From the NCBI GenBank assembly GCA_944385535.1, contig CALWXR010000031.1, forward strand, positions 1 through 35,243: a stretch of 35,243 bases of DNA, given 5' to 3'. How positions within the stretch are numbered: position 1 is the stretch's first letter; the number at the start of each line of letters is the position of its first letter. This document shows positions 11,709 through 35,193 of the stretch, one piece after another. The notes below the pieces were generated by a model. It was not told the DNA's origin. It did no database searches and worked only from the letters and a program-made list of their open reading frames with translations. The DNA is from an uncultured Oscillospiraceae bacterium (GTDB lineage Bacteria; Bacillota; Clostridia; Oscillospirales; Oscillospiraceae). Made by a program: the position numbers and the translations under genes.

Positions 11709-12206
11709 CTATTCCCCCTCCAGCGCCACGCGAAGCTTCTGCAGCGCCCGCTTCTCGATCCGGGATACATAGCTACGGCTGATGCCGGTGATTTGGGCTA
11801 CCTCTCGCTGCCGCTTGGGCTGAGCGCCGTTTAAGCCGTAGCGAAGGAGGATCACCTGCCGTTCCTGATCCGTCAGGCAGCTGTCTATCGCCCGGCGAAG
11901 ATTCCTGGCCATCTCCCTGGCAGACACCTGCTCCATCAGATCGCAGTCCTCACTGACCACATCCATCAGAGAAAGCGCCGCCCCGTCGGTTCCGGTTTCG
12001 ATGTAGTCAGACAAGGAAACATCCTGGGCGCTCTTCCGCTGAGAACGAAAGTGCATCAGGATCTCATTTTCCACACACCGGGCGGCATAGGTAGCCAGTC
12101 TTGCCCCCTTGGCCGGGTCAAAGGTGGCGATCCCTTTGATCAGGCCGATGGTGCCAATGGAGATCAGATCCTCTTGATCCGCTGTCTGGGCGTAGTATTT
12201 TTTAGA
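11709..12206 (-). pseudogene. sigK: sigK 3' part: C-terminal half of sporulation sigma factor K, interrupted
   Basis: The frame reads from KKYYAQTADQEDLISIGTIG through GARLATYAARCVENEILMHF (region 2.3-2.4) to QREVAQITGISRSYVSRIEK (region 4 helix-turn-helix) and stops at 11709: about 165 residues matching the second half of sigma-K, the late mother-cell sigma factor. Regions 1-2.1 are absent. Upstream of the KKYY codons the frame stays open but no longer resembles a sigma factor, and the recombinase gene occupies that DNA. This matches sigK split by a skin element, with the 5' half expected further right beyond the window. A permanent pseudogene is the alternative. I separate sigK from sigE/sigG by the KDVS-like QDVSLSDYIETG segment and the context. 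Confidence 0.85.
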
Positions 12207-13831
12207 CGGATGATGCTTGCGGAGGTTTTTGAGGGGGCATATACCGCCTCATACCGCTCCCCCAGCTTTAGATAGATATCCAGGTGGATTTCCTCCTTGG
12301 TACTCCCCTTTTTTACAACAATTTTTTCTAAAATGGACGCAGCCAGAGGGGTGTTGATACTCCCTGCAAAGCTTAATTCCTGATCGAGAACCCGGCGGAT
12401 TTCCCCAATATTCATCTGCCCATCCACACATTTGGCTTCCTCCTCCCGGATTGCCTGCAGCTGCGTTTCCAGCATCCGGATTTGTCCGTTCATGGCATCG
12501 TTTCGCTGTTTGAATTCCTCTACCCTCAAGGCTCCCGCCACGCTTAAATCCAGCAGGCGGTCCTTTTTTATGTTGATTTCTTCAATCTGGTTCTCAATCC
12601 GGCGGCGCTGGTATCCATAGTCCACTTCCTTGGGTACGCTTTGCAGCACGGTGACAAGAGCGTCAATGATGATTTGCTTATCCTTCATCAGCTCCTTAAA
12701 AATCATACTGAGGATCAAATCCAGTTCACTGCTGCGGATTTGGGGCGCGGAGCAGGCCGCACGGCCGTGGGTACGATAGACCTTGCACTGCCAGACCTCC
12801 TTCTTTCCCTTGCTGCTTTCCAGTACCTGCCGGTGGAAGGTGGTACCGTGTTCCTCGCAGATGATTTTCGTGCTGTAGGGATACCGGTTGTGAAAGCTTT
12901 CGCCGCTGCTGTGTGCCATCATTTCTTCTCTCCTTTTCTTGTACAGGGCGTTTGCCCGGTTCCATAGTTCTTCCGGAACAATGGCGGGGATCGTCGGGTC
13001 AGGGTACATGATCCACTCGCTTTCATCCAAAAATGCTTTCTTTTTGGTACGATAGTCTATGCTTGTGGTTTTATTGCCGCAATACCAGCCCTTGTACTTG
13101 GGATTTTCCAGAATGTGACGGATGGTGAGGGTGTTGAAGGCGTTCCCCTCCCGGCTGGTGTAGCCCATTTCGGTGAGCTTCTTGGAAATGCTCCGGGTAC
13201 CCAGCTTCTGATTGGCGTAAAGATCAAAGATCCTTCGGATAATCTCCGCTTCCTCCTGATTGATGGTCAGAACGCAGTCCTTTTTGTCGTAGCCGTAAAG
13301 CTTATCATTGCCCAGCACATGACCGTTTTTAATGGCCTGCCGAAATCCGAACTTCAGCCGCTCGGACAGCTTGCGAATTTCATCCTGGGCCACACCCGCC
13401 ATGACCACCAGGCGGAACTCGCTGTCAGAATCCAGGGTGTTGATGTTATCGTTTTGAAACAGCACCCCCACATTGTTCTCCAAAAGCTCCTGGGTATACT
13501 TGATGCTGTCTAAGGTAGAACGGGAAAAGCGGGATATTTCTTTCGTGATGATGAAGTCAAAGCGTCCGGCTTTGGCATCCGCAATCATCCGATTGAAATC
13601 GTCCCGCTTTTTCGTGGTGCCGCCGGAGATACCCTCGTCGATATATCCTGGCACAAAGATCCAATTAGGGTTGCTTTGAATCAGCTCGGTGTAATACTGC
13701 ACCTGATTGTCCAGGCTGTTCAGCTGGGCGTCCATATCCGTGGACACTCGGGCGTAGAAGGTCACTCGCAGAGATAGGTCGTAAATCGACCTACCTTGCT
13801 GAAGTGCCCGTCGGATTTGAAGTAAATCCAC
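12164..13831 (-). CDS. Large serine site-specific recombinase (SpoIVCA-like)
   Basis: 555 aa. Resolvase domain with catalytic Ser30 in YARVSTD, then DEGISGGTTKKRDDFNRMI, ITKEISRFSRS, and VVMAGVAQDEIRKLSERLK; a Recombinase domain (about 170-290, GHVLGNDKLYGYDKK, NPKYKGWYCG); a zinc-ribbon-like region (ICEEHGTTF ... QCKVYRTHGRAACSAP, with a C-x2-H first pair); and a coiled coil (about 390-450) near the C-terminus. It sits against the sigK 3' part, same strand, the place held by spoIVCA in Bacillus. Its last 14 or so codons use sigK DNA in another frame, so excision would remove or change its own tail. Its start overlaps the small upstream gene by 41 nt. Function: excise or integrate the element at sigK. 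Confidence 0.92.
   Translation of the reverse strand: MDLLQIRRALQQGRSIYDLSLRVTFYARVSTDMDAQLNSLDNQVQYYTELIQSNPNWIFVPGYIDEGISGGTTKKRDDFNRMIADAKAGRFDFIITKEISRFSRSTLDSIKYTQELLENNVGVLFQNDNINTLDSDSEFRLVVMAGVAQDEIRKLSERLKFGFRQAIKNGHVLGNDKLYGYDKKDCVLTINQEEAEIIRRIFDLYANQKLGTRSISKKLTEMGYTSREGNAFNTLTIRHILENPKYKGWYCGNKTTSIDYRTKKKAFLDESEWIMYPDPTIPAIVPEELWNRANALYKKRREEMMAHSSGESFHNRYPYSTKIICEEHGTTFHRQVLESSKGKKEVWQCKVYRTHGRAACSAPQIRSSELDLILSMIFKELMKDKQIIIDALVTVLQSVPKEVDYGYQRRRIENQIEEINIKKDRLLDLSVAGALRVEEFKQRNDAMNGQIRMLETQLQAIREEEAKCVDGQMNIGEIRRVLDQELSFAGSINTPLAASILEKIVVKKGSTKEEIHLDIYLKLGERYEAVYAPSKTSASIIRLKNTTPRQRIKRI
12190..12206. other. Predicted attachment/crossover region of the sigK element
   Basis: Sigma-like coding begins at the KKYY codons (minus strand AAAAAATACTAC, 12192-12203). 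To the left all sequence is sigK; to the right it is recombinase. The crossover core should lie here or a few bases upstream. Exact core unknown without the other junction. Confidence 0.55.
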
Positions 13832-14000
13832 TGTTTTTTACCTCCTCTTGGTAGCACAAAGGATACTGAAAAAAGGCCGGAAAGTCTATACGAGAATTCA
13901 CCAAATGAATGGCTTTATCATGTACCGTTTTGCTGATCAATTCTTTATCTAGCAGCATGTCTATCAGTACACTCATAACATCGTGTTGCAGTGCTGCCAT
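13791..14000 (-). CDS. Small protein coupled to the recombinase
   Basis: 69 aa beginning MAALQHDVMSVLIDMLLDKE, a helical, SHOCT-like pattern (LISKTVHDKAIHLVNSR), then an aromatic tail. Start at 14000 is fixed by GAGGTGATAAGC before ATG, better than the longer frame from 14051. It overlaps the recombinase start by 41 nt, so the two are translationally coupled. Small proteins of this kind are common next to large serine recombinases in Clostridia; a role as a directionality or accessory factor is a guess. Confidence 0.65.
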   Translation of the reverse strand: MAALQHDVMSVLIDMLLDKELISKTVHDKAIHLVNSRIDFPAFFQYPLCYQEEVKNSGFTSNPTGTSAR

Positions 14001-14100
14001 GCTTATCACCTCAAAATAACCTATGTTATTATTCAGGCGTTCATGCTCCAATCACAAAGGAATCCCGCCGATAGCTATTGATCATAGCAGGATTCGTACT

Positions 14101-15295: not shown

Positions 15296-15376
15296 AAAGC
15301 CATGGAGCGGGAGGAACGCAAGCAGATCCCCAGTAAAAAATTTAGATCCCAAAATCATGAAATGAGGTTATTTATT

Positions 15377-15742
15377 ATGAATCAGAACGAACAGGAGTTT
15401 ATCATCCAGAAGATCCGCACCCAGTATACCGAAAAGCAAGTCACCGAGCTTGACGCTCTGCGTGAGCTGGACGCCAGAGTAAAGCGCCCTGCCAATGTTT
15501 TTGCCTACATCTTCGGAACAATCGGCGCAATCATCATGGGCAGCGGTATGAGCCTTGTAATGACCGACATCGGTAATACAGTGGGAATTGCGGATCCGCT
15601 GGTTCCCGGCATCGTGATCGGTGTTGCGGGTATGGTTATGATGATTCTCAACTACCCAATGTACAAGGGCATCCTGGCTTCCCGTAAGAAGAAGTATGCC
15701 GGCAAAATCATCGCTTTGACCGATCAGCTGCTGAGCCGGTGA
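15377..15742 (+). CDS. Small two-helix membrane protein (often labelled 'dihydropteridine reductase')
   Basis: 121 aa from MNQNEQEFIIQ (ATG 15377, GAGG 9 nt upstream); the longer frame from 15302 lacks a ribosome site. N-terminal charged helix (QVTELDALRELDARVKRPAN), two transmembrane helices (VFAYIFGTIGAIIMGSGMSL; GIVIGVAGMVMMILNYPMY), then a basic tail ending in LTDQLLSR. Strongly resembles the protein at 18514-18921 in length, layout and ending. I do not accept the enzyme name sometimes given to this family: no reductase motif is visible. Followed by a terminator. Confidence 0.8.
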   Translation: MNQNEQEFIIQKIRTQYTEKQVTELDALRELDARVKRPANVFAYIFGTIGAIIMGSGMSLVMTDIGNTVGIADPLVPGIVIGVAGMVMMILNYPMYKGILASRKKKYAGKIIALTDQLLSR

Positions 15743-15758
15743 TCCGCGTCATAAATTC

Positions 15759-15794
15759 TGCGGAGGCGGCGCGAAATTGCCTCCGCACTTTTTT
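15759..15794 (+). terminator. Rho-independent terminator
   Basis: TGCGGAGGC (15759-15767) pairs with GCCTCCGCA (15779-15787), followed by CTTTTTT. Separates the small-protein pair from the two-component operon. Confidence 0.85.
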
Positions 15795-15832
15795 AAAAGC
15801 CGCGAAACAGCAACAAAACTTTAACATTCCCG

Positions 15833-15841
15833 TGGTATACT
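15833..15841 (+). promoter_or_regulatory. Extended -10 promoter of the two-component operon
   Basis: TG-G-TATACT (15833-15841) is an extended -10 element about 50 nt upstream of the response-regulator start. No good -35 box at 17 nt, as expected of extended -10 or activator-dependent promoters. Confidence 0.45.
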
Positions 15842-15893
15842 GAAAAAGTAAAAGTTTGATCGGGAGAGAAGCAATCGGTGGGAGGCTCAGAGA

Positions 15894-16565
15894 ATGTTTA
15901 AAATATTGGTTGTAGAGGATGACAAAGACCTGAACCGCGGTGTGTGCAGTTTCTTGAATAAGAGCGGCTATGAAGCCACAGGCTGTCTTGGGGCGGAGGA
16001 TGCCTATGATCTGATGTACAAAGCCACCTTTGACTGCATTGTGTCGGATATTATGATGCCGGGTATTGACGGCTTTGAATTTGTGAAAACCGTCCGTTCG
16101 CTCAACGAGGATATTCCCATTCTGTTTATGACCGCCCGTGATGATTTTGAGGCAAAACAGCGAGGCTTCCGTGTAGGCATAGATGATTATATGATCAAGC
16201 CCATTGATCTGGATGAGCTGTTTCTGCGGATCGGCGCGCTTCTCCGACGCAGCAAAATCGCGTCCAGCCGCCGCATTGAGGTGGGCGGCTTCGTCATGGA
16301 CGCGGATGAACGAACCGCTATTTTGGACGGTGAGGAAATACCCCTCACCCAAAGAGAATTTGATCTGCTTTATAAGCTGCTGTCCTATCCAAAGAAAGCC
16401 TTCACCCGTCAGCAGCTGATGGACGAATTTTGGGATGTGGATACGAGGGCAAGCACACGGACGGTGGATGTCTATATGACCAAGCTCCGTGGGAAGCTGG
16501 CAAACTGCACCTCCTTTGAGATACAGACCGTTCACGGTCTTGGCTATAAGGCGGTGCTGAAATGA
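15894..16565 (+). CDS. OmpR/PhoB-family response regulator
   Basis: 223 aa. Receiver domain (1-115) with acidic pair Asp9/Asp10, phospho-acceptor Asp52 in IVSDIMMP, Thr80 and Lys102 (IKP); winged-helix DNA-binding domain (about 128-223) with LTQREFDLLYKLLSYPKKAF, RQQLMDEFW and the typical VDVYMTKLRGKL and TVHGLGYKA ending. Its stop overlaps the kinase start by 4 nt (ATGA). Partner of the next gene. Likely targets include its own operon and the neighbouring small membrane proteins; the signal is unknown. Confidence 0.95.
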   Translation: MFKILVVEDDKDLNRGVCSFLNKSGYEATGCLGAEDAYDLMYKATFDCIVSDIMMPGIDGFEFVKTVRSLNEDIPILFMTARDDFEAKQRGFRVGIDDYMIKPIDLDELFLRIGALLRRSKIASSRRIEVGGFVMDADERTAILDGEEIPLTQREFDLLYKLLSYPKKAFTRQQLMDEFWDVDTRASTRTVDVYMTKLRGKLANCTSFEIQTVHGLGYKAVLK

Positions 16566-17662
16566 AAAGACAGACGCCGCTGAAAAAGGTATTATTATCC
16601 CTGTACCACTATCTTTGCTTTTTCCTGTTAATGGCGTTTGTCATTTCCTGCTGTGTTTCGCTGTTTGTCAGCACCATGAGCAGAACCATGGAGATCACAT
16701 GGACGGACGAAATGCTGGGCGCCGCGGCCAAGCGCACATTCCTGAATGTGCTGTTTTTAAGCTTTGTATGCACCGTGATCGATGAGATACGCAGAAAAAT
16801 CACGGTGGAGCGGCCGGTCAAAACCATCGTTTCCGCCGCGGAGCGAATCGCAAAGGGCGATTACTCGGTGAGGATACCGCCGCTGAAGGGCAGCCATGAA
16901 CATGACGGACTGGGCGAAATTGTGGAATCCATCAATCAGATGGTGGAGGAACTGTCCGGCGTAGAAACCTTGCAGACAGATTTTATTGCCAATGTGTCCC
17001 ACGAGCTGAAAACGCCCATTGCCGTCATGCAAAACTACGCCGCCCTGCTTTGCCAGTCTGACCTTTCGGAAGAGGAAAGACTGCGTTATGCAAAATCTGT
17101 TTTGGAGGCTTGCAAGAGGCTCAGCGGCTTAGTGACCAATATTCTGAAGCTCAACAAGTTGGAAAGTCAACAGATATATCCGCAAACGCGAAGCTATAAC
17201 CTGACTGCGCAGATTTGCGAGTGTCTGCTTGCCTTTGAGAATGTATGGGATGAAAAGAGCATTGAGATTGAAACGGATTTGGAGGAAGATGTCAAAATCT
17301 CCGCCGATCCCGAATTGCTTTCTTTGGTGTGGAACAATCTGTTCTCCAACGCGCTGAAATTTACGGACAACGGCGGCAAGGTGAGCGTTTCCCTGAAAGT
17401 AAATAATACAGCTGTGGAGGTCAGCGTTGCCGATACCGGCTGCGGCATCCCGCCGTATGTGGGCAAGCATATTTTTGACAAGTTTTATCAGGCAGACACC
17501 TCCCACGCCACACAGGGCAACGGGCTTGGACTTGCGCTTGTAAAGCGGGTGGTCAGCATCGTAGGCGGTGATATTTCCGTTGCAAGCGAAGTGGGCAAAG
17601 GCAGTACCTTCACGGTCACTTTAAGGGGGGCGTCCATTGGAAACATGGAAGAAAATCGGTAA
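16562..17662 (+). CDS. Sensor histidine kinase
   Basis: 366 aa. Two transmembrane helices (about 13-37 and 57-73) separated by only about 20 residues, so almost no external sensor domain; HAMP (about 78-132); HisKA with His147 in FIANVSHELKTPIAVM; HATPase with N box WNNLFSNALKF, G1 VADTGCGIPP and G2 QGNGLGLALVKRV. The tiny loop suggests it senses membrane stress or a neighbouring membrane protein, as in intramembrane-sensing kinases. Its 3' end overlaps the start of the next gene by 26 nt. Confidence 0.94.
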   Translation: MKRQTPLKKVLLSLYHYLCFFLLMAFVISCCVSLFVSTMSRTMEITWTDEMLGAAAKRTFLNVLFLSFVCTVIDEIRRKITVERPVKTIVSAAERIAKGDYSVRIPPLKGSHEHDGLGEIVESINQMVEELSGVETLQTDFIANVSHELKTPIAVMQNYAALLCQSDLSEEERLRYAKSVLEACKRLSGLVTNILKLNKLESQQIYPQTRSYNLTAQICECLLAFENVWDEKSIEIETDLEEDVKISADPELLSLVWNNLFSNALKFTDNGGKVSVSLKVNNTAVEVSVADTGCGIPPYVGKHIFDKFYQADTSHATQGNGLGLALVKRVVSIVGGDISVASEVGKGSTFTVTLRGASIGNMEENR

Positions 17663-18512
17663 AGCACTGCTGCTGCCCCATATGGCGATTATGCTGATCC
17701 TGCTCCCGGTAGCTGCAGCACTGCTTGTATATGAGCTTGCGTTTGCCGAAACGGAGACGATCCGAACCTATAGTTCCTATGGCTTGGGGTTTTATACCCT
17801 GATGGTATGGTGTATTCGGATACCGGATTGCGTCAAGCGATTCAGGGAAATTCGGGATGGAAACCGATACATTCTGCGCTGGCGGGAGGATGTCCGCCTG
17901 CGGATGCATGTATCCCTTTACGGCGCCTTTGGGTGGAATGCGGCCTATTCGGCGTTTCAGTTCTGCCTTGGATTGTATCATAAGTCGGTTTGGTTTTACG
18001 CAATGGCGGGATACTACATACTTCTTGCCGTTATGCGTTTTTTTCTTGCCGGACATACCCGAAAGTACAAACCCGGAGAAAAAATGGGGTTAGAACTTAT
18101 CAAGTACTGCGCCTGCGGCTGGATCTTCCTGCTGATGAATGCCGCGCTTACTGTGATGATTTTCTTTATGGTGTATTGGAACCGGACATTTCACCACCAT
18201 GAGATTACCACCATCGCCATGGCAACATACACCTTCGTTGCATTCACCGTTGCCATTGTCAACATTGTGAAATATCGAAAATACAACAGCCCGGTCTATT
18301 CAGCCTCCAAAGCGATCAGCCTTGCGGCGGCCTGCGTGTCCATGCTGACGCTGGAATCCACCATGCTGACCACCTTTGGCAATGGCTCAATGGACTTGGC
18401 CACCCGCAGGCTCTTTCTCGCGCTCAGCGGCGGCGCTGTATCGGCGTTTATCATCGCTATGGCGATTTACATGATTATGAAGGCGTCTAGGGCCTTGAAA
18501 CAGGAGAAGTAA
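17637..18512 (+). CDS. Multi-pass membrane protein of the two-component operon
   Basis: 291 aa, about eight predicted membrane helices (LLLPHMAIMLILLPVAAALL; LGFYTLMVWCIRIP; FYAMAGYYILLAVMRFFLAG; WIFLLMNAALTVMIFFMVYW; others to the C-terminus). No known domain recognised. The start is TTG at 17637, inside the kinase gene, with AAGGGGGG about 7 nt upstream; no ATG gives a comparable site. Overlap with the kinase implies coupling, so it may be the sensory or output partner of a kinase that has no sensor domain of its own. Confidence 0.75.
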   Translation: METWKKIGKALLLPHMAIMLILLPVAAALLVYELAFAETETIRTYSSYGLGFYTLMVWCIRIPDCVKRFREIRDGNRYILRWREDVRLRMHVSLYGAFGWNAAYSAFQFCLGLYHKSVWFYAMAGYYILLAVMRFFLAGHTRKYKPGEKMGLELIKYCACGWIFLLMNAALTVMIFFMVYWNRTFHHHEITTIAMATYTFVAFTVAIVNIVKYRKYNSPVYSASKAISLAAACVSMLTLESTMLTTFGNGSMDLATRRLFLALSGGAVSAFIIAMAIYMIMKASRALKQEK

Positions 18513-18513
18513 T

Positions 18514-18921
18514 ATGAGCGAACAAAATAACAGTTTCCACTACACCTATTCCTCCGCGCAGCAGAAAGAGGTCGAGGCGATCCGAAAAAAATATGTGTCT
18601 GACACGGCGGAAATATCCGAAAGCAAGCTGGAAAAGCTGCGAAAACTGGATGCCGGTGTTACCAATAAAGCAGCCACGATTTCCCTTTGCGTCGGCATTA
18701 CCTGCCTGCTGATCATGGGCCTTGGCATGAGCCTGATTATGAGCGAATTTGGAGATGGGCTTGGTACAGCGTTGGAGTGGACGCTCGGGCTGCTCTGCGG
18801 TGGGATCGGCATGGCGGGTATCATTGCCGCCTACCCCCTTTATCAGTGGGTGCTGAAAAGAGAACGCAAAAAGGCCGCTCCTCAGATTCTGAAACTGACG
18901 GAGGAGTTATCCCAGGAATAA
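18514..18921 (+). CDS. Small two-helix membrane protein, resembles the one at 15377
   Basis: 135 aa. N-terminal soluble helix (QQKEVEAIRKKYVSD, KLEKLRKLDAGVTNK), two transmembrane helices (TISLCVGITCLLIMGLGMSL; TLGLLCGGIGMAGIIAAYPL), a basic stretch KRERKK, and a LTEELSQE end. Same plan as the 121-aa protein before the two-component system: KLRKLDA/ALRELDA, MGLGMSLIM/MGSGMSLVM, AYPLY/NYPMY. Last gene of the operon, one base after the previous stop region. Function unknown. Confidence 0.82.
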   Translation: MSEQNNSFHYTYSSAQQKEVEAIRKKYVSDTAEISESKLEKLRKLDAGVTNKAATISLCVGITCLLIMGLGMSLIMSEFGDGLGTALEWTLGLLCGGIGMAGIIAAYPLYQWVLKRERKKAAPQILKLTEELSQE

Positions 18922-19085: not shown

Positions 19086-19154
19086 TTGATGGTTCGAATC
19101 TCCTCTGAGAGCAAAACATACAGGCACCCTTTGGGGTGCCTTAGAGTGTTGAAA

Positions 19155-19444: not shown

Positions 19445-19476
19445 CTACCCGGAAACTTACTTTCTCGGCAGTCTGA

Positions 19477-19552: not shown

Positions 19553-20653
19553 TTACGATGTGCGCTTGGTTCGCAGGCGGTGAGAATTTACAGGTCCCGT
19601 ACTCCCTCTAACCACCAGCTTGGGATAATACTCAACTCTTGTGACGCCCTCCGGATTACTGTTTTGTTCGGAAGCGTCACTGTTGATCTTTTTAACCATA
19701 ATATTCACCAACTCCCGCCCCGTCTGGCGAGTGTACGCGTCAACTGAAGTAAGAGAAACGGTTTCATACTTGGACAGGTCTGTGTTGTCACAGCCGCAAA
19801 TAGAATAATCCTCCGGAACCCGCTTTCCCGCTTTTAATATGGCATCCTTTATACCAACCGCAATCACATCATTGATGGTTACAAACGCCGTAATATCCTC
19901 ATCCCGCTGAATGATTCTCTGGGCAATCGCAAACCCCAGCTCATATCCTTCTGCCGGAAAGCTGCTTTCCACCAATTCCGTATCGGGAGTGTATACCCTT
20001 ATACACTGATCCGGGTCGAATCCCTTTGCTGAATAGGCGCTGCGCAGCCCCTCTAAACGCTGGATGCGAGTTGACTGCTTTGTGTTGAAGGTGGAGGATA
20101 CAAACGCCACTCTCCGATGCCCGAGCGCGCATAAGTGCTCTCCGATCAGGGCCCCCATTTTCAAACCGTCAATCTCCAAAACGGTGGCGTATCTGCAATC
20201 GCCCTTATTGCAGTGGAACATCAGCGGCTTATCAGCTTGAATAAGCTGAGGCAAAGTATCATCCTCAAAGGGATAGCACACAATGATCCCGGCAATCGGG
20301 AATTGGGTGCAAATCTTAGCTATAGCCGCTTCCTGCGCTACTTCCCGGAAAGAATTAAAGGCAATCAGCGTGTATCCCAATTCCTTTGCCCGCTGCTGCA
20401 TAGCTTCCAGCGTGTGAACATAACTTAAATTGGAAAACGAAGGAACAACCGCGGCAATGGCCTTGGTGGTATCGGTTTCCTTGATCGTGATTTTCCGAAC
20501 GTACCCCAATTCCTTACAGGCGGCGATCACCCGGCGGCAGGTTTCCTCCGGGAATTTCGTTTCGTTACCGCCGTTCAAAATCATGGATACCGTTGTAGGA
20601 GATACACCGGCCCGCTGGGCGACATCTTTTGCAGTGATTCTCTTTGGCCTCAT
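19553..20653 (-). CDS. LacI-family transcriptional regulator
   Basis: 366 aa. N-terminal helix-turn-helix and hinge (ITAKDVAQRAGVSPTTVSMI followed by LNG), then a periplasmic-binding-protein-like effector domain (AIAAVVPSFSNLSYVHTLEA; VEIDG-like VLEIDGLKMGALIGEHL; DITAFVTINDVIAVG; YSICGCDNTDLSKYETVSLT). Start at ATG 20653 with GGGGTG 6 nt upstream rather than the TTG 21 nt earlier. Last gene of the minus operon, with its own -10 box, so probably a repressor of the polyol dehydrogenase/epimerase operon. Effector unknown. Confidence 0.92.
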   Translation of the reverse strand: MRPKRITAKDVAQRAGVSPTTVSMILNGGNETKFPEETCRRVIAACKELGYVRKITIKETDTTKAIAAVVPSFSNLSYVHTLEAMQQRAKELGYTLIAFNSFREVAQEAAIAKICTQFPIAGIIVCYPFEDDTLPQLIQADKPLMFHCNKGDCRYATVLEIDGLKMGALIGEHLCALGHRRVAFVSSTFNTKQSTRIQRLEGLRSAYSAKGFDPDQCIRVYTPDTELVESSFPAEGYELGFAIAQRIIQRDEDITAFVTINDVIAVGIKDAILKAGKRVPEDYSICGCDNTDLSKYETVSLTSVDAYTRQTGRELVNIMVKKINSDASEQNSNPEGVTRVEYYPKLVVRGSTGPVNSHRLRTKRTS

Positions 20654-20699
20654 ACAATACACCCCATTTGCCAATCACGCGGCAATTCTGCTTAACGAT

Positions 20700-20705
20700 A
20701 TTATA
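20700..20705 (-). promoter_or_regulatory. -10 box upstream of lacI
   Basis: Minus strand TATAAT (20700-20705), about 45 nt upstream of the lacI start, in the 124-bp gap after the dehydrogenase gene. The -35 region is poor, so lacI may have a weak own promoter as well as read-through. Confidence 0.45.
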
Positions 20706-20777
20706 CATTTTCAAGGTGCAATTTTCAGCAGGAAAGTATGTACCACGGCTTGCGGCGTGCGCGGGATATGGACACTG

Positions 20778-22028
20778 TCAAGCATCGATCATCCATCGAA
20801 TCCGCATCATCGTTAAGCGGTTTCTCGCGGAAGGAGAATACTTCAATATAGCAGGCAGATATTCCGCAGGAATCCCCATATCTTCCAAGCTTGACTTCAT
20901 TCCGGTTTTGGAATACAGGCGGGTCAACTCTGTGGGGGACGGAATCTCCCCAATAATCTGGCGAATTTGGGGCCAGGTCAAAATTAGTTTTCCGGCAGTC
21001 ACTCCGGCCATACAGTCATTCTTATTTTCCTCCAGCGTTGAACGCCAGAGCCGCTCCCCGTAAAAGGAGCGGATCTCGCTTTCGCCAAGGAATGTATATG
21101 GTTTGACGCAGGATGTAATATCCTCAATTTCCGCAATCCTGTGGAATTCCTCGGATGCCAGAATTGTTCCTACGCCGACCTTCTCCCCATGCAGCGCATC
21201 AGAATGGGACGGAAGGGCAGCGGGCTCCATTTCAATCAAATGGGAGATATGATGCTCACAGCCGGACGCGGGCCGGGAATTGCCCATCATCTGCATAGCC
21301 AGGCCTGACAGAATAAGGGCATACATGAGCTGGGCAACCGCTTCCGTGTCTCTTTGAGACAGCTTTTCGCAGCACTGATGTACGGCTTCCACCGCATCCC
21401 GTGTCATGGTTTCGATTCTGGGACAGAAGTATTCCCCTGTAAGGGCATGGGCGATTTTCCAGTCCGCAAGGGCGGTATACTTGCCAAAAATATCTCCCGC
21501 ACCGCTAAGTGTCAATCTCAACGGAGCTTCTTTGATGATGTCGATATCTGCCAGCACCAATATGGGCGCAATGCCCGGCAGAGTTTTCTTAAAACCATTC
21601 CACGTCATTGCGGAAATGGTGGAGCAAAAACCGTCAACGCTGGCCGCGGTAGGACAGGCCACAAAGGGAATCCCCCGGCTGTGGGCACAATAGCGGGTAG
21701 TATCATGGATGGTTCCGCCTCCGATTGCCGCCAAATAGCGCACATCCTTATCCAACTGCCTCAGCACAAGCGCCACCGCTTTTTCGTCAGCATGCAGGTT
21801 TCTTGCAGGCAATACGATTTCCTGATCCGCTTGGGGGCGAACCATGTTGACGGCACAGTAAGTATTTTCATCGTAAATTGCGGCAAACTTGCCTGTAAGG
21901 CCGTGCTTTCGCGTATAGCGGCTTAATTGCTTCAAGCATCCCGGCTCAATAACAGCCTCTTTTGTAGCCATTTCATGGCAGTACCCACAGGAGCACGGGC
22001 CGTTATACTGTGTGCTGTCAATAATCAT
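20778..22028 (-). CDS. sn-Glycerol-1-phosphate dehydrogenase-like iron/nickel-type dehydrogenase (AraM/EgsA family)
   Basis: 416 aa. NAD-binding IGGGTIHDTTRYCAHSRGIP and CPTAASVDGF; metal ligands Asp in SGAGDIFGKYTALADW, His in CEHHISHLIE and His in SDALHGEKVGVG: the signature of AraM-type glycerol-1-phosphate dehydrogenases, which interconvert dihydroxyacetone phosphate and G1P. B. subtilis AraM lies in the arabinose operon and its ligand use is somewhat open. Start: AAGGAG then ATG 22028. It follows the zinc dehydrogenase and epimerase on one transcript, suggesting oxidation of a polyol phosphate. Family firm; substrate here inferred. Confidence 0.85.
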   Translation of the reverse strand: MIIDSTQYNGPCSCGYCHEMATKEAVIEPGCLKQLSRYTRKHGLTGKFAAIYDENTYCAVNMVRPQADQEIVLPARNLHADEKAVALVLRQLDKDVRYLAAIGGGTIHDTTRYCAHSRGIPFVACPTAASVDGFCSTISAMTWNGFKKTLPGIAPILVLADIDIIKEAPLRLTLSGAGDIFGKYTALADWKIAHALTGEYFCPRIETMTRDAVEAVHQCCEKLSQRDTEAVAQLMYALILSGLAMQMMGNSRPASGCEHHISHLIEMEPAALPSHSDALHGEKVGVGTILASEEFHRIAEIEDITSCVKPYTFLGESEIRSFYGERLWRSTLEENKNDCMAGVTAGKLILTWPQIRQIIGEIPSPTELTRLYSKTGMKSSLEDMGIPAEYLPAILKYSPSARNRLTMMRIRWMIDA

Positions 22029-22119
22029 ATATAATACTCCTTTGACGATTTTGGGAGAATATAGCCCACATCAGTATGTATATCCACTGCCTTTTCCATG
22101 ACGGTTCACATGTTTCTTC

Positions 22120-23193
22120 TTAATCCAGCTCAGCAAGGTAAAGGGCCTTACAGGAGACTACTTCACGCTTAAAGATTTTGTCGATAAGTACAGGAATCTC
22201 CTCAATATCCGCCCGATGGGAAATCAAATCCTGACACTCAAACTTACCGGCATCCATCATCGCCACAGTAAACTCCCATTCATTGATAGGGGTTCCACCA
22301 AAGTGACTGTTCCAAATGCCTTTGATATTCAGTTCCTTGCGCAGAACCTGACTGTGCGCTTTTAGGGTAATGGTTGTATTTCCAGCAGGATTTCCCAGCA
22401 AAACAACATTTCCAAACGCCTTGGTACACCAAATGCAGTTCTCCAGAGCAGAGCCAAAGCCAGTTCCTTCAATGGATACATCGGCCAGCTTGCCGCCAAA
22501 GGCTTCTTTCACGGCCTTGACCAGTTCCTCGCCGTTTGCGGTGGTTGCATCCATTCCGTGCTCCCGGGCAAACTCAGCCTTGGATTCCACTACATCTACC
22601 AGCAAAACATTGGACGCTCCGCTGATCTTCGCCCATCTGCCAGCCATAATACCAATGGGGCCGGCACCGAAGATCAGCACATTGGAGCCAGCAAACACAT
22701 CGCCCTTACGGACAGCGTGCTGGGCAACACAGGCGGGCTCGGTCATTGCCAGCACTTCCATGGGAACCTCTTTGTTCTTGGAGGAAACAAAGTGCCATTG
22801 GCTGGGAATCAGGCAATACTGCGCAAAACCGCCGTCACTGCGAGAACCCAGATAATCGTAATCCGCACACATGGCATAATGCTCAGTCAAACAGCTCGGA
22901 CACTTACGGCAGGGAATCAGAGGAAAAACAGCGCCACGCTGACCAATCAACGAGGGATCCGCTTCTTCACCAACAGCCACCACCGTGCCGGCAAACTCAT
23001 GTCCCACGGTCAGCGGGTATTTCCCGTTACTGGAGCCGTGATGGTAGATACGGGGCAGATCACTTCCGCATACTCCGCATGCACCGACCTTGATCAGCAG
23101 CTCCTTGCCATGGGGAACCGGAATGGTTTCCTCAACAGTACGGAAGTCGCCGATCTGAAACAGCCTTGCGGCTTTCATAGTATTTTCGCTCAT
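22120..23193 (-). CDS. Zinc-dependent medium-chain polyol(-phosphate) dehydrogenase, GatD-like
   Basis: 357 aa MDR enzyme. Catalytic zinc site CGVCGSD and GHEF; structural zinc cysteines in PCRKCPSCLTEHYAMC; NAD(P) fold LIFGAGPIGIMAGRWAK. The C-terminal part (INEWEFTVAMMDAGKFECQD followed by LISHR) resembles galactitol-1-phosphate 5-dehydrogenase and related pentitol-phosphate dehydrogenases. Start ATG 23193 with AAAGGAG 8 nt upstream; it begins 5 nt after the epimerase stop. Probable reaction: polyol phosphate to ketose phosphate, the product then handled by the epimerase. Threonine/sorbitol dehydrogenase activity is possible. Confidence 0.88.
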   Translation of the reverse strand: MSENTMKAARLFQIGDFRTVEETIPVPHGKELLIKVGACGVCGSDLPRIYHHGSSNGKYPLTVGHEFAGTVVAVGEEADPSLIGQRGAVFPLIPCRKCPSCLTEHYAMCADYDYLGSRSDGGFAQYCLIPSQWHFVSSKNKEVPMEVLAMTEPACVAQHAVRKGDVFAGSNVLIFGAGPIGIMAGRWAKISGASNVLLVDVVESKAEFAREHGMDATTANGEELVKAVKEAFGGKLADVSIEGTGFGSALENCIWCTKAFGNVVLLGNPAGNTTITLKAHSQVLRKELNIKGIWNSHFGGTPINEWEFTVAMMDAGKFECQDLISHRADIEEIPVLIDKIFKREVVSCKALYLAELD

Positions 23194-23198
23194 CTACA

Positions 23199-23873
23199 CT
23201 ACTCCTTTCCAATGACCCGGTTCATCTTCATCAGGTTATCCGCCATAGACGCGCCCTTAAAGAACACGCTGGAGCTGCCCCCCACAAAGATATCCGCGCC
23301 AGCCTCACGCATCTGAGCGGCGTGTTCAAAGCTAACATTCCCATCCACCTCGATCAGGGCATCCTCACGGTCATGGCTGTCAAGGAATTCTCGAACCTGT
23401 CTGATCTTCCGCAAAGCGGAGGAGTACATGGGCTGTCCGGCAAAGCCGGGATTGACGGTCATGACCAGAACACCGTCGATTGCGTCAATCAGGTGGTCGA
23501 TCACATCTACAGGAGTAGCGGGATTGATCGCAAGAAAGGGTTTTGCGCCCTTTTCACGGATAGCGGAGAGGACGCGGGGAACATGGGGTGTGCTTTCCCA
23601 ATGGACAGCAACAATCTCGCCGGGCTGTATATTGAAGCGGTCAATTTTAAGATCAGGCCGTTCAATCATTAAATGGATATCCAGAGGGATATTGGTCAGC
23701 TTCCGGAGCTGATTGCAGAAATCAGTGCCAAGGGCATAGTTGGGAACAAATTCACCATCCATAACATCCATATGTAAGTAGTCAACACCGTACTCCTTGA
23801 AAGTCTTTAAGGTTTCCTCAGTACGGGCAAGATCCATACACATCATGGAGGGGGCTAATAGGCTTTTACTCAT
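23199..23873 (-). CDS. Ribulose-phosphate 3-epimerase family enzyme (Rpe/AlsE-like)
   Basis: 224-aa TIM barrel. Metal and acid/base residues: LLAPSMMCMDLA start, HMDVMDG, DIHLMIERP, VHWES, VMTVNPGFAGQPMY, IEVDGNVSFEHA, GGSSSVF at the phosphate site. The AAVHxE-like position reads VAVHWE, typical of variants such as allulose-6-phosphate epimerase (AlsE). First gene of the operon (ATG after GGAG). Likely role: C3 epimerisation of D-ribulose-5-P to xylulose-5-P, or of a hexulose-6-P. Not the housekeeping Rpe, given its place in a catabolic operon. Confidence 0.88.
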   Translation of the reverse strand: MSKSLLAPSMMCMDLARTEETLKTFKEYGVDYLHMDVMDGEFVPNYALGTDFCNQLRKLTNIPLDIHLMIERPDLKIDRFNIQPGEIVAVHWESTPHVPRVLSAIREKGAKPFLAINPATPVDVIDHLIDAIDGVLVMTVNPGFAGQPMYSSALRKIRQVREFLDSHDREDALIEVDGNVSFEHAAQMREAGADIFVGGSSSVFFKGASMADNLMKMNRVIGKE

Positions 23874-24266: not shown

Positions 24267-24333
24267 TTTTATGCAATTACGCACCGAACGGCGTGGGAAT
24301 AAGTCGTGATAGCGGCTTATTCAGCAGACATTA
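24267..24333 (-). repeat. Partial repeat copy C, fused to the binding-protein stop codon
   Basis: Reads TAATGTCTGCTGAATAAG, hairpin to CTTATTC, then GTAATTGCATAAAA; stops where copies A and B have their 16-bp hairpin. Its first three bases (24331-24333) are the TAA stop of the solute-binding gene. Confidence 0.75.
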
Positions 24334-25425
24334 GTTGGCGGTAATCTTGTCCCACTCAGCAATCAAGCGTTCCTTGTTCTCCGCAGCCCACGCGTAGTCC
24401 AGCTCGACAACCGCAGTATCAGCAAACTCCTCCAGACCGGCGCCGGCAACGCCGCATGCATACATGATGCCTCTTGCGAATTCCTTATTGCGTTCAGCCC
24501 AGCCGGTGCTGGCCACCAGATCGGCGATGGCCTTGGCGTTGGCTTCGTTCTTGCAGCCCTTGATAACGGCGCTGCCGGTGACCTCCAGACCAGTTCCTTC
24601 GGAAGGCGCGGAGATAACCATGTTGGTGTAGCCTTCGTCGATCAGAGACAGACCGTGCTGCATATAGCCGATGCCGACGGGAGCTTCGCCCAGAGCAACA
24701 GACTGGGAGGGGCCGCTGCCGCCGGAGGCGTAGGTCTTAACATTCTCGTGCAGCTTGGCGTAGTAAGCCAGGCCTTCCTCTTCGCCCATCAACTGAACCA
24801 GCGTAGACAGCACCATGTAGCCTGTGGTAGAGGTGCCGGGGTTGGTGACAATGATCTGACCCTTCAGAGCGGGATCAAGCAAATCCTCCCAGCTATCGGG
24901 AATCTCAACGCCGTTGGCTTCGCACCATTCCTGATCCACATAGAAGCCCAGGTAGGAAAGGTTGAAAGCAAACCAATTCCAATCCGCATCGTGCGCATAG
25001 TCGGGATAGGCGTCGCCGCCGGCGGGTTTGTAGGGCAGCAGAGCACCCTCTTCCGCCAACTGAATGTAGGATTCGCAGCCTGCGCCGCACATGAAGTCGC
25101 CCTGGGGGTTGCCCATTTCAGCTTCAACACGGTTAATCATTTCGCCGCCGTTCATCTTAACCATGTTAATGGTCAGATCGGGATAGATCTCATTGGCGTA
25201 CTCGGTAAATGCCAGCACCCAGTCGTCAGCCCATGTGGTATAAATGTTGACCTCGCCCTCGATCTTGGGAGCGGGTTCAGTGGTCGCTTCGGTTTCCGCG
25301 GGAGCGTCAGTCTCAGCAGGCGCCGCGGATGCGGACGCTTCGGTTTCTGCGGACTCAGCGCTTCCACAGGCAACCAGCGACAGGACCATAATCATGGCCA
25401 GGAGCAGTGCAAGTAACTTTTTCAT
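24331..25425 (-). CDS. Solute-binding lipoprotein, AfuA/Fbp-like family
   Basis: 364 aa with a lipobox (LSLVAC) after a 20-residue signal, then an acidic Ala/Thr/Glu linker (residues about 22-52) and the binding domain: GEVNIYTTWADDWVLAFTEY, RVEAEMGNPQGDFMCGAG, TNPGTSTTGYMVLSTLVQLM, SGGSGPSQSVALGEAPVGIG. This is the iron(III)/spermidine type-II fold, of which AfuA binds hexose phosphates. The twin-Tyr iron site of FbpA is not visible, and the neighbours are phosphosugar enzymes, so a sugar phosphate, polyol phosphate or similar anion is likelier than iron. Last gene of its operon, with AAGGAG before ATG. Its stop codon belongs to the inserted repeat C. Confidence 0.88.
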   Translation of the reverse strand: MKKLLALLLAMIMVLSLVACGSAESAETEASASAAPAETDAPAETEATTEPAPKIEGEVNIYTTWADDWVLAFTEYANEIYPDLTINMVKMNGGEMINRVEAEMGNPQGDFMCGAGCESYIQLAEEGALLPYKPAGGDAYPDYAHDADWNWFAFNLSYLGFYVDQEWCEANGVEIPDSWEDLLDPALKGQIIVTNPGTSTTGYMVLSTLVQLMGEEEGLAYYAKLHENVKTYASGGSGPSQSVALGEAPVGIGYMQHGLSLIDEGYTNMVISAPSEGTGLEVTGSAVIKGCKNEANAKAIADLVASTGWAERNKEFARGIMYACGVAGAGLEEFADTAVVELDYAWAAENKERLIAEWDKITAN

Positions 25426-25497
25426 TTTTGAATCTCCTTCATTTTTATTTTATCGGGCAAGCCCAATAATTACATAGTAAGCGGGAACGGACGGGAA

Positions 25498-26580
25498 TCA
25501 AATAATGTGCAGGGTGTTTTCCTTAAAGGCGACATAGACATCCTCACCCTCGCTGTATGCCTTGTGCTGGGCGTAATCATAGTCCTCCACGATGATCTGC
25601 ATACCGTCTGTATCGCAGATGTATTCCTGCATGGCTCCCATGAAGATGGAAGAGTTGATGTGAGTCTTGAATACACCCTGGTCTGCCAAACGGACGGATT
25701 CAGGACGCGCCATAACAGTGACGGTTTGACCGGCAGTACGATTCTGCCATGCGGTATCCTGGATCTCAAGCGTCTTGCCGTACATATCCACAGTGGTGAC
25801 ACCTTCCCCGACAGAGCGAACCTTACATTCGATAAAATTGGAGCGGCCTATGAAGTCCGCGACAAACACGGAAGCGGGATGGCTGTAGATTTCGTTTGGA
25901 GTGCCGATCTGCTCGATAACACCCTTGTTCATAACGATGACCCGGTCAGAAAGAGCCATAGCCTCAGACTGGTCATGGGTAACATAGATGCTGGTGATCC
26001 CCAGGCGGCGCTGGATACGCTTGATCTCATTTCTCATGGAGACACGGAGCTTTGCATCCAGATTGGAAAGAGGCTCGTCAAAAAGCAGCACACCAGGCTC
26101 AACCACCAGAGCTCTGGCAAGGGCAACACGCTGCTGCTGACCGCCGGAGAGCTGATTGGGTAAGCGCTCGCCCAGACCTTTCAAGCCTACCAGTTCCATA
26201 ATCTCCTTCGTGCGCTTGTTGATCTCATCTTCTTTGAGTTTGCGCAGCCGCAGGCCAAAGGAAATATTGTTGAATACATCATAGTGCGGGAACAGGGCAT
26301 AGCTCTGGAACACCATGGCGGTATCCCGGTTGTCAGGCGTTACAGCAGTAACGTTCTCGTCACCGATGAACACATCGCCGGAAGTAGGATTTTCAAAGCC
26401 GGCGATCATACGCAGAGTCGTTGTCTTGCCGCATCCGGAAGGTCCCAACAGGGTAACAAACTCGCCGGAGTGAATTTCCAGAGAGATGTCATTGACTGCC
26501 CGGAAGGTCTTTTTATCAGGGGAAACATATTCACGGATAACATTTTTTAAGGTAACATTCTTGGTGTTTGTATTTTTCAT
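25498..26580 (-). CDS. ABC importer ATP-binding protein (PotA/FbpC/AfuC-like)
   Basis: 360 aa. Walker A GPSGCGKTT, Q-loop FQSYALFPH, signature LSGGQQQRVALARAL, Walker B VLLFDEPLSNLDAKLR, H-loop YVTHDQSEAMAL, then a TOBE domain (about 280-355). The start is ATG 26580 (GGAG 8 nt upstream), not the TTG 21 nt further out. Its own permease and binding protein flank it, so unlike the MurNAc importer this system is self-contained. The TOBE domain and spacing match the spermidine/iron/hexose-phosphate class. Confidence 0.93.
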   Translation of the reverse strand: MKNTNTKNVTLKNVIREYVSPDKKTFRAVNDISLEIHSGEFVTLLGPSGCGKTTTLRMIAGFENPTSGDVFIGDENVTAVTPDNRDTAMVFQSYALFPHYDVFNNISFGLRLRKLKEDEINKRTKEIMELVGLKGLGERLPNQLSGGQQQRVALARALVVEPGVLLFDEPLSNLDAKLRVSMRNEIKRIQRRLGITSIYVTHDQSEAMALSDRVIVMNKGVIEQIGTPNEIYSHPASVFVADFIGRSNFIECKVRSVGEGVTTVDMYGKTLEIQDTAWQNRTAGQTVTVMARPESVRLADQGVFKTHINSSIFMGAMQEYICDTDGMQIIVEDYDYAQHKAYSEGEDVYVAFKENTLHII

Positions 26581-26644
26581 ATGTAAGCTCCATTCCGCCA
26601 ATTTGATTCTGGCATTTCAGATAGTCGGGGTATTTATCTCTGCA

Positions 26645-28312
26645 TTACAGCAGCTTAATTTCTTTCCGGTTTACGCCGAACAAGCCAATCAGTCCATACA
26701 GGCAGGCAATGGCTATCAGGACAACAATAATCATCATCGTGCCCATAGCACAGGCGGCGCCGTAACGGCCATCCGCTACCATCCGCATGATGGTGGTGGT
26801 CAAAAGCTGGTGTCTGGGAGACACAAAGAAAATCAGCGCGGACATGGAGGTCATAGTCCGAACAAACACATACACAAGACCGCCGAAGAACGCGGAGCGA
26901 ATCAGAGGAATGGTAACCTTAACAAACACTTTCATACTGTTCGCGCCAAGGTCAGCAGCAGATTCCTCAATGGAGGGATCGATCTGCCGCAGGGAGGTAA
27001 CGCCGGAGCTCAGGCCCAATGGCAGATAGCGGCTGCAGCAAGACGCTACCATCAGGATCAGGCTGCCGGTCAAGACAATGGGAGGCTCGTTGAATTGGAG
27101 AACATAGGCATAGCCCAGAATCGTACCAGGAATGATCATACCCATCATACCAAGCGTATTCATTAAGCCTGTCAGCTTATTCTTTTTGCGCACGATCAGG
27201 AAAGACATCAGCATGGACAGCAAGCCGGTCAAAGGCGTTGTTATCACCGCCAGCCACAGGGTATCAAACAGAGCTTCGCTGCCCAGCTTCCATGCCTGCT
27301 GATAGTTCTTAAAGGTAAACTCATAGTTGACACCCCAGACCTTAATAAAGGAAACAACGGGAATCATGAAGTACATCAGCAGAACCAGGGCGGTCACAAC
27401 GCCGCAGAAAATATTTAAGGGGATGGTAATGTGCTTTTCCTCAATGGGCGTGCGTTCACGGGTGGCCTTGCCTGTAATGGTAACATAGGTTCGCTTGGTC
27501 AAAACAGACTGAGACAGCAGGTAGATGATCAATGTCATAACCAGCAACAGCATCGCCAGGGCACAGCAGCGCTGCATCTCATAACCGCCGGTAGCCTGGA
27601 AGTAAATCTGGGTCGCCATGGTCAGGTAGTCGCCGCCGATAAAGTTGGGATTGCCAAAATCCGCTACACATTTAATAAAGACAACCAAAAACGCGTTGCC
27701 AATGCCGGGCAGTGCCAGAGGCAATGTAACCTTGGTAAAGGTTTTCCAGCGGGAGGAACCCATATCTCTTGCCGCTTCCTCAATGGAGGGATCGATGCTT
27801 GCCAGAACACCCTTCAAAGCCAGATATGCCATAGGAAAGAAGCTGAACGTCTGCGCAAACAGCAGTCCCCAGAATCCATAGATGTTCGCGTTCTGGATTC
27901 CAAGAAGAGTCTTGGAAATCAGGCCCTTGCCGCCGAACAGCAGAATCGTGGACAGGGACATGGCAAAAGGCGGGGAGATGATCGGAAGCAGCGCCACAAA
28001 GTCAAACAGCCGCTTGAACCGCATCTTCAAATAGCAGGAGCAATAGGCGAAAATAAAGCCAATGATGGTGGACAGCAGTGCCGCCAGAGAGCTTGACACC
28101 AACGTGTGGATGATGGCCTCCCGGTTCTGCTCATACTGGAAGGCTCTCACATAACCCATAAAGGAATATGTAACACCATCGGCGTTGGTAAAGCTTTCAA
28201 TCAAAATCTTAATAAGAGGCAGTACGTTGAACACTACCAGCGACGCAATAATGATCAGCGTAAATGTTGCCGAGATTGGATCAAACACTCGCTTGCGATT
28301 TGTCAGGTTCAT
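26645..28312 (-). CDS. ABC importer fused permease (two BPD_transp_1 domains; FbpB/AfuB-like)
   Basis: 555 aa, about 12 transmembrane helices in two homologous halves. Each half has an EAA loop: EEAARDMGSSRWKTFTKVTL (first) and EESAADLGANSMKVFVKVTI (second). This double-permease layout is typical of iron and hexose-phosphate importers. First gene of the operon, behind a strong minus-strand promoter; AAAGGA precedes ATG 28312. Confidence 0.93.
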   Translation of the reverse strand: MNLTNRKRVFDPISATFTLIIIASLVVFNVLPLIKILIESFTNADGVTYSFMGYVRAFQYEQNREAIIHTLVSSSLAALLSTIIGFIFAYCSCYLKMRFKRLFDFVALLPIISPPFAMSLSTILLFGGKGLISKTLLGIQNANIYGFWGLLFAQTFSFFPMAYLALKGVLASIDPSIEEAARDMGSSRWKTFTKVTLPLALPGIGNAFLVVFIKCVADFGNPNFIGGDYLTMATQIYFQATGGYEMQRCCALAMLLLVMTLIIYLLSQSVLTKRTYVTITGKATRERTPIEEKHITIPLNIFCGVVTALVLLMYFMIPVVSFIKVWGVNYEFTFKNYQQAWKLGSEALFDTLWLAVITTPLTGLLSMLMSFLIVRKKNKLTGLMNTLGMMGMIIPGTILGYAYVLQFNEPPIVLTGSLILMVASCCSRYLPLGLSSGVTSLRQIDPSIEESAADLGANSMKVFVKVTIPLIRSAFFGGLVYVFVRTMTSMSALIFFVSPRHQLLTTTIMRMVADGRYGAACAMGTMMIIVVLIAIACLYGLIGLFGVNRKEIKLL

Positions 28313-30911: not shown

Positions 30912-30966
30912 CTCTTGCGGGCAAAATCGGGTAAGCCCCTTATAAACCAGGAAAGGAACTGTCAGT

Positions 30967-31614
30967 ATGAAAAACATTCTATGTTACGGTGATTCCAATA
31001 CATGGGGATATACACCTGGTACCGGAGCGCGTTATCCTCGAAGCGTTCGTTGGACGGGACGGATGGCACAGGCGCTGGGAAAAGACTATTATGTGATAGA
31101 AGCGGGTCTATCGGGACGAACCACTGTCTATGACGACCCAATGAATCCCATCCTGAACGGTCTGGAATACCTCCCTATGGTGCTGAAGCAATCTGCCCCT
31201 CTGGATATGGTTATTCTGTCTCTTGGCACCAATGATTTGAAATTTGTTGACGCTATCCGGTCTGCCCGCGGTATGGAAAAGCTTGTAGACGTCTGCAAGC
31301 GCGCAAATGCGACGCTGGCTTCATCTTCCCCCATTTTTAACGAAAACGCAAAAATCCTGGTGGTTTCTCCTATTGAACAGAGCCGCCGTATGTTTGAACT
31401 GAATCCTTACAGCAGCTTCCTGCCAGAGGCTCCGGAGGAATCCAAGAAGTTCCGTGAGATATACTCCCACTACGCAAAGCTTGAGAATGTGGAATTCTTT
31501 GATGCCGCGTCGGTTGCGTCCGCGTCCGATGTGGACGGTGTGCATATGTCACCTGAAAGTCATGCGGCTTTGGCTGCTGCTCTTACAGAAAAAGTTCTTG
31601 AAATATTCAAATAA
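30967..31614 (+). CDS. SGNH/GDSL-family hydrolase (esterase or deacylase)
   Basis: 215 aa, no signal peptide. Block I GDSNTWGYTPG (Ser9 nucleophile), block II Gly in AGLSGRTTVYDDP, block III LSLGTNDLK (Asn), block V DGVHMSPESH (Asp and His). Similar to arylesterases and acyltransferases acting on acylated sugars. Placed 55 bp after the AraC-type regulator and ending at a terminator, so it belongs with the uptake system; it could remove acetyl or acyl groups from the imported compound. Substrate unknown. Confidence 0.9.
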   Translation: MKNILCYGDSNTWGYTPGTGARYPRSVRWTGRMAQALGKDYYVIEAGLSGRTTVYDDPMNPILNGLEYLPMVLKQSAPLDMVILSLGTNDLKFVDAIRSARGMEKLVDVCKRANATLASSSPIFNENAKILVVSPIEQSRRMFELNPYSSFLPEAPEESKKFREIYSHYAKLENVEFFDAASVASASDVDGVHMSPESHAALAAALTEKVLEIFK

Positions 31615-32465: not shown

Positions 32466-32560
32466 AGCGAAGCCTCCTGATTTTGTTCTGCCCCAAGTAT
32501 AGCACATCTACAGGCGGCAGGCAAACGGAAATAGCATGGGCTCAGGCTTTTCTGATATCC

Positions 32561-33814: not shown

Positions 33815-33832
33815 CGCTTGATTCCTCCCAAA

Positions 33833-34893: not shown

Positions 34894-35193
34894 TCAACAC
34901 AAATCAAGAAGCTCCGGAAAAGTATGAATTTTCGCTGTATACTTTTCGGGCTCTCCAAATCCATAAGATGCCCAAATAAATGGAATCCCCGCTTCCACAG
35001 TGGCCTCGTAATCGTGCTGCGTATCTCCGATGTAAACGCAGCTTTCAATATGATAGCGCTCCATCAATACGCGGATTGTTTTTCCTTTACTCAGACGTGT
35101 ATCTCCGTGGCAAAGGTGTCCTTGAATGTAGGGAGTTAATCCCATTTTTTCAATACATATTTCAGGCGAAAATTGCAAGTGCAAGTTGGACAC
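34894..35193 (-). pseudogene. HAD-family phosphatase, C-terminal part, broken or cut by window edge
   Basis: The frame holds a HAD C-terminal half: VSNLHLQF (motif II strand), GDTRLSKGKTIRVLM (motif III Lys) and CVYIGDTQHDYEATVEAGIP (motif IV), then FIWASYGFGEPE. Motif I (DxDxT) is absent. Just upstream the same frame has a TAA (35209-35211), yet the residues before the stop (HPKPWLEL) still look like HAD sequence, so this is probably a single-base-damaged or frameshifted gene rather than a genuine start at the GTG 35193. The other half would lie beyond the window. Confidence 0.7.

Follow-up and report, generated by a model that had tools for sequence, protein, structure and literature searches.

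A recombinase-bearing, probably skin-like element divides sigK in an uncultured Oscillospiraceae bacterium

Skin of Bacillus subtilis is described as a 48-kb prophage-like region (PMC13141910), and skinCd of Clostridioides difficile as encoding a serine recombinase, CD1231, which is constitutively expressed, together with a directionality factor, CD1234, whose expression is sigE-dependent (PMC5025042). Also described are prophages in sigK of C. tetani, C. perfringens and Alicyclobacillus (PMC5553647, PMC13141910), the yin element in yabG (PMC10747680), and gin, a non-phage element of 28.6 kb with three serine recombinases in gerE of Bacillus cereus ATCC10987, where the host gene is rebuilt in sporulation (PMC5595907); PMC4430133 belongs to the same literature. 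Because gin is non-phage, prophage-like content is not strictly defining for such elements. As far as these sources go, the skin-like elements described so far follow the pattern of one element in one gene, and no report of more than one element in one sigK was found in the literature searched, most subscription papers lying outside it.

The window analysed here is the whole of contig C31, 35,243 nucleotides from an uncultured Oscillospiraceae bacterium (genome G000; assembly of 2.85 Mb in 121 contigs, 99% complete, contamination 2.31%). Positions 11709-12206 of its minus strand matched the NCBIfam SigK subfamily profile NF004471 at profile positions 68-228 of 235 (E 6.1e-61), and since the match starts at position 68, about the first 67 SigK positions are missing from the window. 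The sigK 3' part (11709..12203, minus strand; region 2.1 onward) begins with KKYYAQTADQ, and its best public matches were mostly Oscillospiraceae or Clostridiales/Eubacteriales assemblies, with a few Candidatus Faecousia. It is preceded on the same strand by the gene for a large serine recombinase of 555 aa, recombinase A (12164..13831, minus strand), which matched Pfam Resolvase, Recombinase and Zn_ribbon_recom as well as a PHROGs integrase (4.3e-113). A sequence-only reading of the window had described a minus-strand recombinase that runs directly into the sigK 3' part, and this was confirmed: there is no gap between the two, and the last codons of the recombinase overlap the sigK frame. SigK DNA thereby supplies the codons for the C-terminal tail of the recombinase (window 12164-12206), which excision would alter.

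No sigK 5' part is present in the window. When G000 was searched with the N-terminus of the SigK of an intact relative, a single occurrence was found at C74:11322-11507 on the plus strand, with 82% identity over 62/62 residues. The encoded part ends in LRLVAHIM followed by a few foreign codons, and this end coincides exactly with the junction. The 5' half thus lies outside the window, as had been predicted, and its orientation relative to the 3' part, across two contigs linked by a HAD hydrolase gene, is one that can join. An intact sigK elsewhere in the genome, and a 5' half that is absent or faces the wrong way for joining, had been named as outcomes that would speak against a split gene. 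Neither was seen: the 5' half is joinable, and no second or intact copy was found in G000 when the genome was searched with both the 3' part and the N-terminus. A 244-aa frame on C7, second in rank as a match to the 3' part, is 47% identical to it and probably SigE.

In relatives that are uninterrupted at the position after LRLVAHIM (site A), the sequence reads ATG AAR AAR TAY. The G000 junctions read ATG-AA-TAAATGC on the 5' side and CGTCT-AA-AAAATACTAC on the 3' side, and since both match the uninterrupted site only at AA, these 2 bp were taken as the recombination core (12202..12203, minus strand). A core of 2 bp is expected of serine recombinases. In the comparison with uninterrupted relatives that had been proposed with the sequence-only reading, the junctions agree at AA, and AA was also present at every other site-A junction read; in some lineages the agreement extends beyond it. 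For the empty site, intact relatives were used in place of a single syntenic sister, because a tblastn comparison of the ORFs of the window and C74 with sigK-bearing loci showed few neighbours in common. As attP sits at the 3' end of the recombinase gene itself, the last residues of the recombinase differ between the integrated and the circular form. Joining the two G000 halves at AA produced a single frame of 226 aa, which passed the SigK subfamily cut-off of NF004471 (281.8 bits against 252) but, at 274.8 bits, fell short of the more demanding TIGR02846 cut-off of 298.65 bits, a point against the presence of an excisable element. At the level of sequence, both halves, a joinable orientation, a 2-bp core, an in-frame join and a recombinase at one end are established, and the earlier claim that a recombinase-bearing element cuts sigK of G000 in two is confirmed to this extent.

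The element would run from C74:11508 to the end of that contig and then from window position 35166 back to 12204. C74 extends 803 bp into the element and takes in the 5' part of a HAD hydrolase gene before it ends; the 3' part of this gene lies at the right end of the window (34894..35166, minus strand). Profile HAD_2 was matched at positions 1-106 on C74 and at positions 112-177 in the window, in the orientation that the element model requires. A 13-bp repeat (35154..35166) is also found at C74:12221 and flanks an unassembled insert in the HAD gene. Based on the two gene halves and the repeat, C74 and C31 were taken as adjacent and parted by this insert. The size of the element was thereby calculated as 726 + 22,963 - 13 = 23,676 bp plus the insert. 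That the halves lie on separate contigs with an unread insert between them counts against the element. The earlier estimate of at least about 23 kb, including the two-component locus and the phosphosugar island, fits contig ends that have one HAD gene in common. An insertion sequence in the HAD gene was suggested by the 13-bp repeat; the 82-bp end of the insert on C74 occurs only once in G000, so the insert was not called an insertion sequence.

An assembly of this fragmentation and contamination level could in principle combine C31 and C74 from different strains, the real sigK being intact but unassembled. This explanation is extremely unlikely, as G000 holds a single 5' piece and a single 3' piece, the contig ends have the HAD gene in common, and the same sigK split recurs in other genomes. 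GC content was 0.58 (C31) and 0.574 (C74) outside the element and 0.49-0.51 (C31) and 0.41 (C74) inside, giving a step at both junctions; 17 other G000 stretches, among them one that overlaps the element (L009), served as the reference and ranged over 0.53-0.61. On the other side, single windows outside the element dip to 0.43-0.51. The closed element of a relative (G145), with 0.564 inside, shows a weak contrast.

The cargo, as annotated with Pfam, comprises a two-component system with flanking small proteins (15302..18921, plus strand); a LacI regulator, an Fe-ADH, a Zn-ADH and a ribulose-phosphate 3-epimerase (19553..23873, minus strand); an ABC transporter with solute-binding protein, ATPase and permease (24331..28312, minus strand); an AraC-type regulator and a GDSL/SGNH hydrolase (28623..31614, plus strand); and a DeoR regulator, a Zn-ADH and a PfkB kinase (31713..34741, minus strand). 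One recombinase was recognised among the element ORFs scanned. When ten element proteins were compared with PHROGs, the recombinase matched an integrase, two proteins fell into families classed as of other or unknown function, and the remaining seven had no match; apart from the integrase, no phage-type gene was recognised among these ten proteins. It had been suggested that such cargo is unlike that of described skin elements. The metabolic content and the lack of recognised phage genes other than the integrase bear this out, but the contrast is not complete, as the non-phage intervening element gin has already been described. A repeat of about 330 bp (window 19143-19476) was also observed on three other G000 contigs, and a 122-bp inverted pair lies inside the window (18964-19085 / 23999-24120); both have matches in relatives.

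The locus resembles skin of B. subtilis with its recombinase SpoIVCA in that sigK is split by an element bearing a large serine recombinase and rejoining restores the frame, and differs from it in its metabolic cargo and in that no phage gene save the integrase was recognised among the ten proteins compared with PHROGs. It shares with gin the non-phage nature and a serine recombinase in a sporulation gene; unlike gin, which lies in gerE and has three recombinases, it targets sigK, has one recognised recombinase and carries other cargo. Integration into sigK is common to this element and the prophages of C. tetani, C. perfringens and Alicyclobacillus, whereas those prophages carry structural genes and occur, in the descriptions cited, as one element per sigK.

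The distribution of the split was examined in 136 genomes of the genus, with a threshold for recombinase A of at least 67% identity and E of at most 1e-100. Recombinase A was found in 18 of them and adjoins sigK at the same codon in 16; in the remaining two, one contig ends before sigK (G005) and the other has an attP-like junction (G137). This recurrence at one codon, together with the in-frame join of the G000 halves, indicates that the recombinase/sigK junction is not due to chance. A shortened recombinase relative in G025 fell below the threshold, yet has the sigK junction. Nineteen of the 136 genomes hold sigK 5' pieces that stop at site A, and in three of the nineteen (G148, G131 and G151) there is, in addition, a copy without interruption at this site. 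Both ends of the element were located on one contig in direct orientation in G145 (10,703 bp, with in-frame rejoining) and G147 (3,055 bp, in frame up to a junction at a second site, site B), and on one contig in G085 (about 8.3 kb, estimated from coordinates alone, the join itself being unread). The G145 element carries GH94 and GH1 glycosidase genes, and that of G085 encodes two ABC-ATPase proteins and one GHKL-domain protein.

An ordinary chromosome rearrangement could also have parted the two halves, in which case the 23 kb would be chromosome and joining would need a large deletion or inversion. In line with this, the two-component block, which has no second match in G000 among the matches listed, occurs at a distance from sigK in a large part of the genus, on contigs without a known sigK piece or, in G017, on the same contig far from sigK. 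Cargo is hardly shared either: in the comparison of site-A stretches, which included short ones, only the recombinase was widely common, the other matches being distant ABC and LacI proteins and one gene present in both G035 and G016. The junctions of G035 are at least 57 kb apart, over two contigs. Such a rearrangement is nevertheless very unlikely and was set aside, given the elements with both ends on one contig (G145 and G147 in direct orientation, and G085), the GC step at both G000 junctions and the HAD gene common to the ends of C74 and C31.

Directly upstream of recombinase A lies a small ORF of 69 aa (13791..14000, minus strand), homologues of which occupy the same position at the other recombinase A loci listed, with 37-49% identity. 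It had no match in Pfam or PHROGs and, guessing from its position, may be a directionality factor or co-regulator. The arrangement is like that of skinCd, in which a sigK element combines a serine recombinase with a small protein, the directionality factor there and a candidate for this role here; compared with the constitutive CD1231 and sigE-dependent CD1234, the small ORF stands directly before the recombinase. A CATA resembling a -10 element of the sigE/sigK type is located 25 nt upstream of the small ORF (14022..14025, minus strand). It was present 25-27 nt before the small ORF in 14/14 upstream sequences listed, several of which are near-copies and which were counted without a shuffle control, and a similar [CA]ATAC box was found 26-28 nt before sigK in 24/102 sequences.

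Taken together, the locus is very probably a skin-like gene-intervening element in sigK at site A that would be excised in the mother cell, and not a prophage. We infer excision, its timing and its control from the skin precedents. Late in sporulation, a sigE-type promoter would drive expression of recombinase A together with its small partner in the mother cell. Crossing of attL with attR at AA by the recombinase would release the element, cargo included, in circular form, and sigma-K would be made from the restored sigK. The forespore would keep the element, so that it would be inherited. The element may accordingly be pictured as a carrier whose cargo is exchanged between strains. By analogy with skin, sigK would probably be stitched by DNA excision at each spore formation. 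A point against this reading is that a search of viral_contigs for a free copy of the element, using the reconstructed attP pattern, gave 0 matches. Relatives of recombinase A were found at 16 loci in the same collection, three of them at 66-80% identity.

Alternatively, sigK could be dead, with the insertion a fossil from which nothing is excised and with late sporulation lost or being lost. The 5' piece of G028 is degenerate, a divergent split copy adjoining recombinase A in G083 is accompanied by an uninterrupted sigK, and copies uninterrupted at site A occur together with split ones in G148, G131 and G151; these observations also count directly against an element in use. On the other hand, the reading frames of the halves have stayed open in G000, G145 and G147, where the halves are separated by 3 to 24 kb and join in frame, all 18 recombinase A matches are without an inner stop (the G137 copy lacks its first 45 residues), the small ORF and its upstream CATA are kept, and SpoIVA is retained in G000. 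A dead gene is therefore considered unlikely.

Site A is not the only position at which sigK is interrupted in the genus. A search of the 136 genomes with the later part of SigK gave matches in 106, of which 22 start only near the VENEIL position, pointing to a second site after AARC (site B), and 15 end near SRSYVS, the candidates for a third site after this motif (site C). The 3' junctions at site B were read in eight of the 22 (G019, G031, G017, G001, G028, G033, G011 and G018) and have AAATG, or AAACG in one, in common with the 5' side. The site-B element of G011 is closed, spans 4,307 bp and yields a full SigK on rejoining; its recombinase is a distant second type with 34-35% identity to recombinase B. 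We take the insertion site of skin in B. subtilis to match site B here and not site A. Site C was confirmed by sequence in nine of the 15 candidates, six with a third recombinase alongside (G003, G027, G144, G145, G018 and G138) and three without one within 400 bp (G015, G034 and G118); the others are candidates by match end alone (G066, G071, G081, G141, G142 and G151). In a tree of 61 rows, some of which are copies from one genome, recombinases A, B and C each formed a group of their own; the branches that join the groups are long and unsafe.

Two splits were often found in the same gene. Seventeen site-A sigK pieces were read (the 16 genomes above and G025), and eight of them run into a site-B junction (G064, G149, G154, G083, G019, G085, G147 and G028), all three pieces of the gene being found in four (G019, G064, G085 and G154). 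Two further site-A pieces, those of G145 and G138, are also split at site C, and G018 combines splits at B and C. Double-split genomes that have no other copy would need two separate joins for sigma-K. In a poorly resolved sigK tree (84 rows, 100 columns), the split states required 6 changes for A, 8 for B and 8 for C, with starred branches forcing at least 4, 3 and 2 changes, respectively, which weakly suggests that the splits were repeatedly gained or lost.

Three recombinase families have repeatedly targeted a single developmental gene; up to two elements are present at a time, and their non-phage cargo differs greatly in size. Elements intervening in sigK are known; a cargo-bearing non-phage element in a sigK that is split at three sites is, to our knowledge, new. 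With somewhat better than even confidence, we propose that sigK in this group is spliced at the DNA level from two to three pieces by three distant recombinase families, each with its own site and often two at once. On this proposal, sigma-K from a doubly split gene would form only if two separate recombinases are active in one mother cell, so that the final stage of sporulation would be doubly locked, and sigK would serve the elements as a protected place for exchangeable metabolic cargo, which every mother cell would discard. Relatives with no, one or two splits allow a test between parasites tolerated in a terminal cell and locks on the timing of sporulation. Since sigK looks broken in such genomes, annotation of gut assemblies could mistakenly record a loss of spore formation.

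Several loci showed further arrangements. In G137 (C29; L238:2956), the 3' end of recombinase A meets, at the AA core, a half-site of the type seen on the inner side of 5' junctions. An excised or tandem element would leave such an attP-like junction, which favours the excision reading; as this recombinase is without its first 45 residues, the junction may be a fossil or part of a tandem array. The contig beyond it has genes named by eye that we take to be a type I-C CRISPR-Cas locus, and a gene beside the junction matches one inside the G033 element. On G033:C16 (L155, L156 and L168), 44 kb of the contig separate a clean site-A 5' part of sigK from a site-B 3' part, and no middle piece was found in this interval, a point against the element reading. 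Two site-A 5' parts are located about 4.5 kb apart in G064 (C24:18063 and 22534), and G148 has an extra 5' part about 9.3 kb from the copy uninterrupted at site A (C1:39849 and 30218).

A paralogous recombinase with about 41% identity to recombinase A (G000:C35:2164-3858; L242) is present in many genomes of the genus. Its last codons (GHTFKKMIEAYEQG..Q) are nearly identical in most genus copies, and the tail is perhaps the host-encoded end of another split gene; a check for such a gene gave no named candidate. In viral_contigs, one of the three closest relatives of recombinase A (L303) also bears a sigK piece and, by eye, further serine-recombinase-like ORFs, and L305 is another relative in a contig filed as viral. 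A site-A junction was also observed in an assembly called Clostridiales U.9_7 (L093), where a sigK piece 65% identical to that of the window lies at the contig start.
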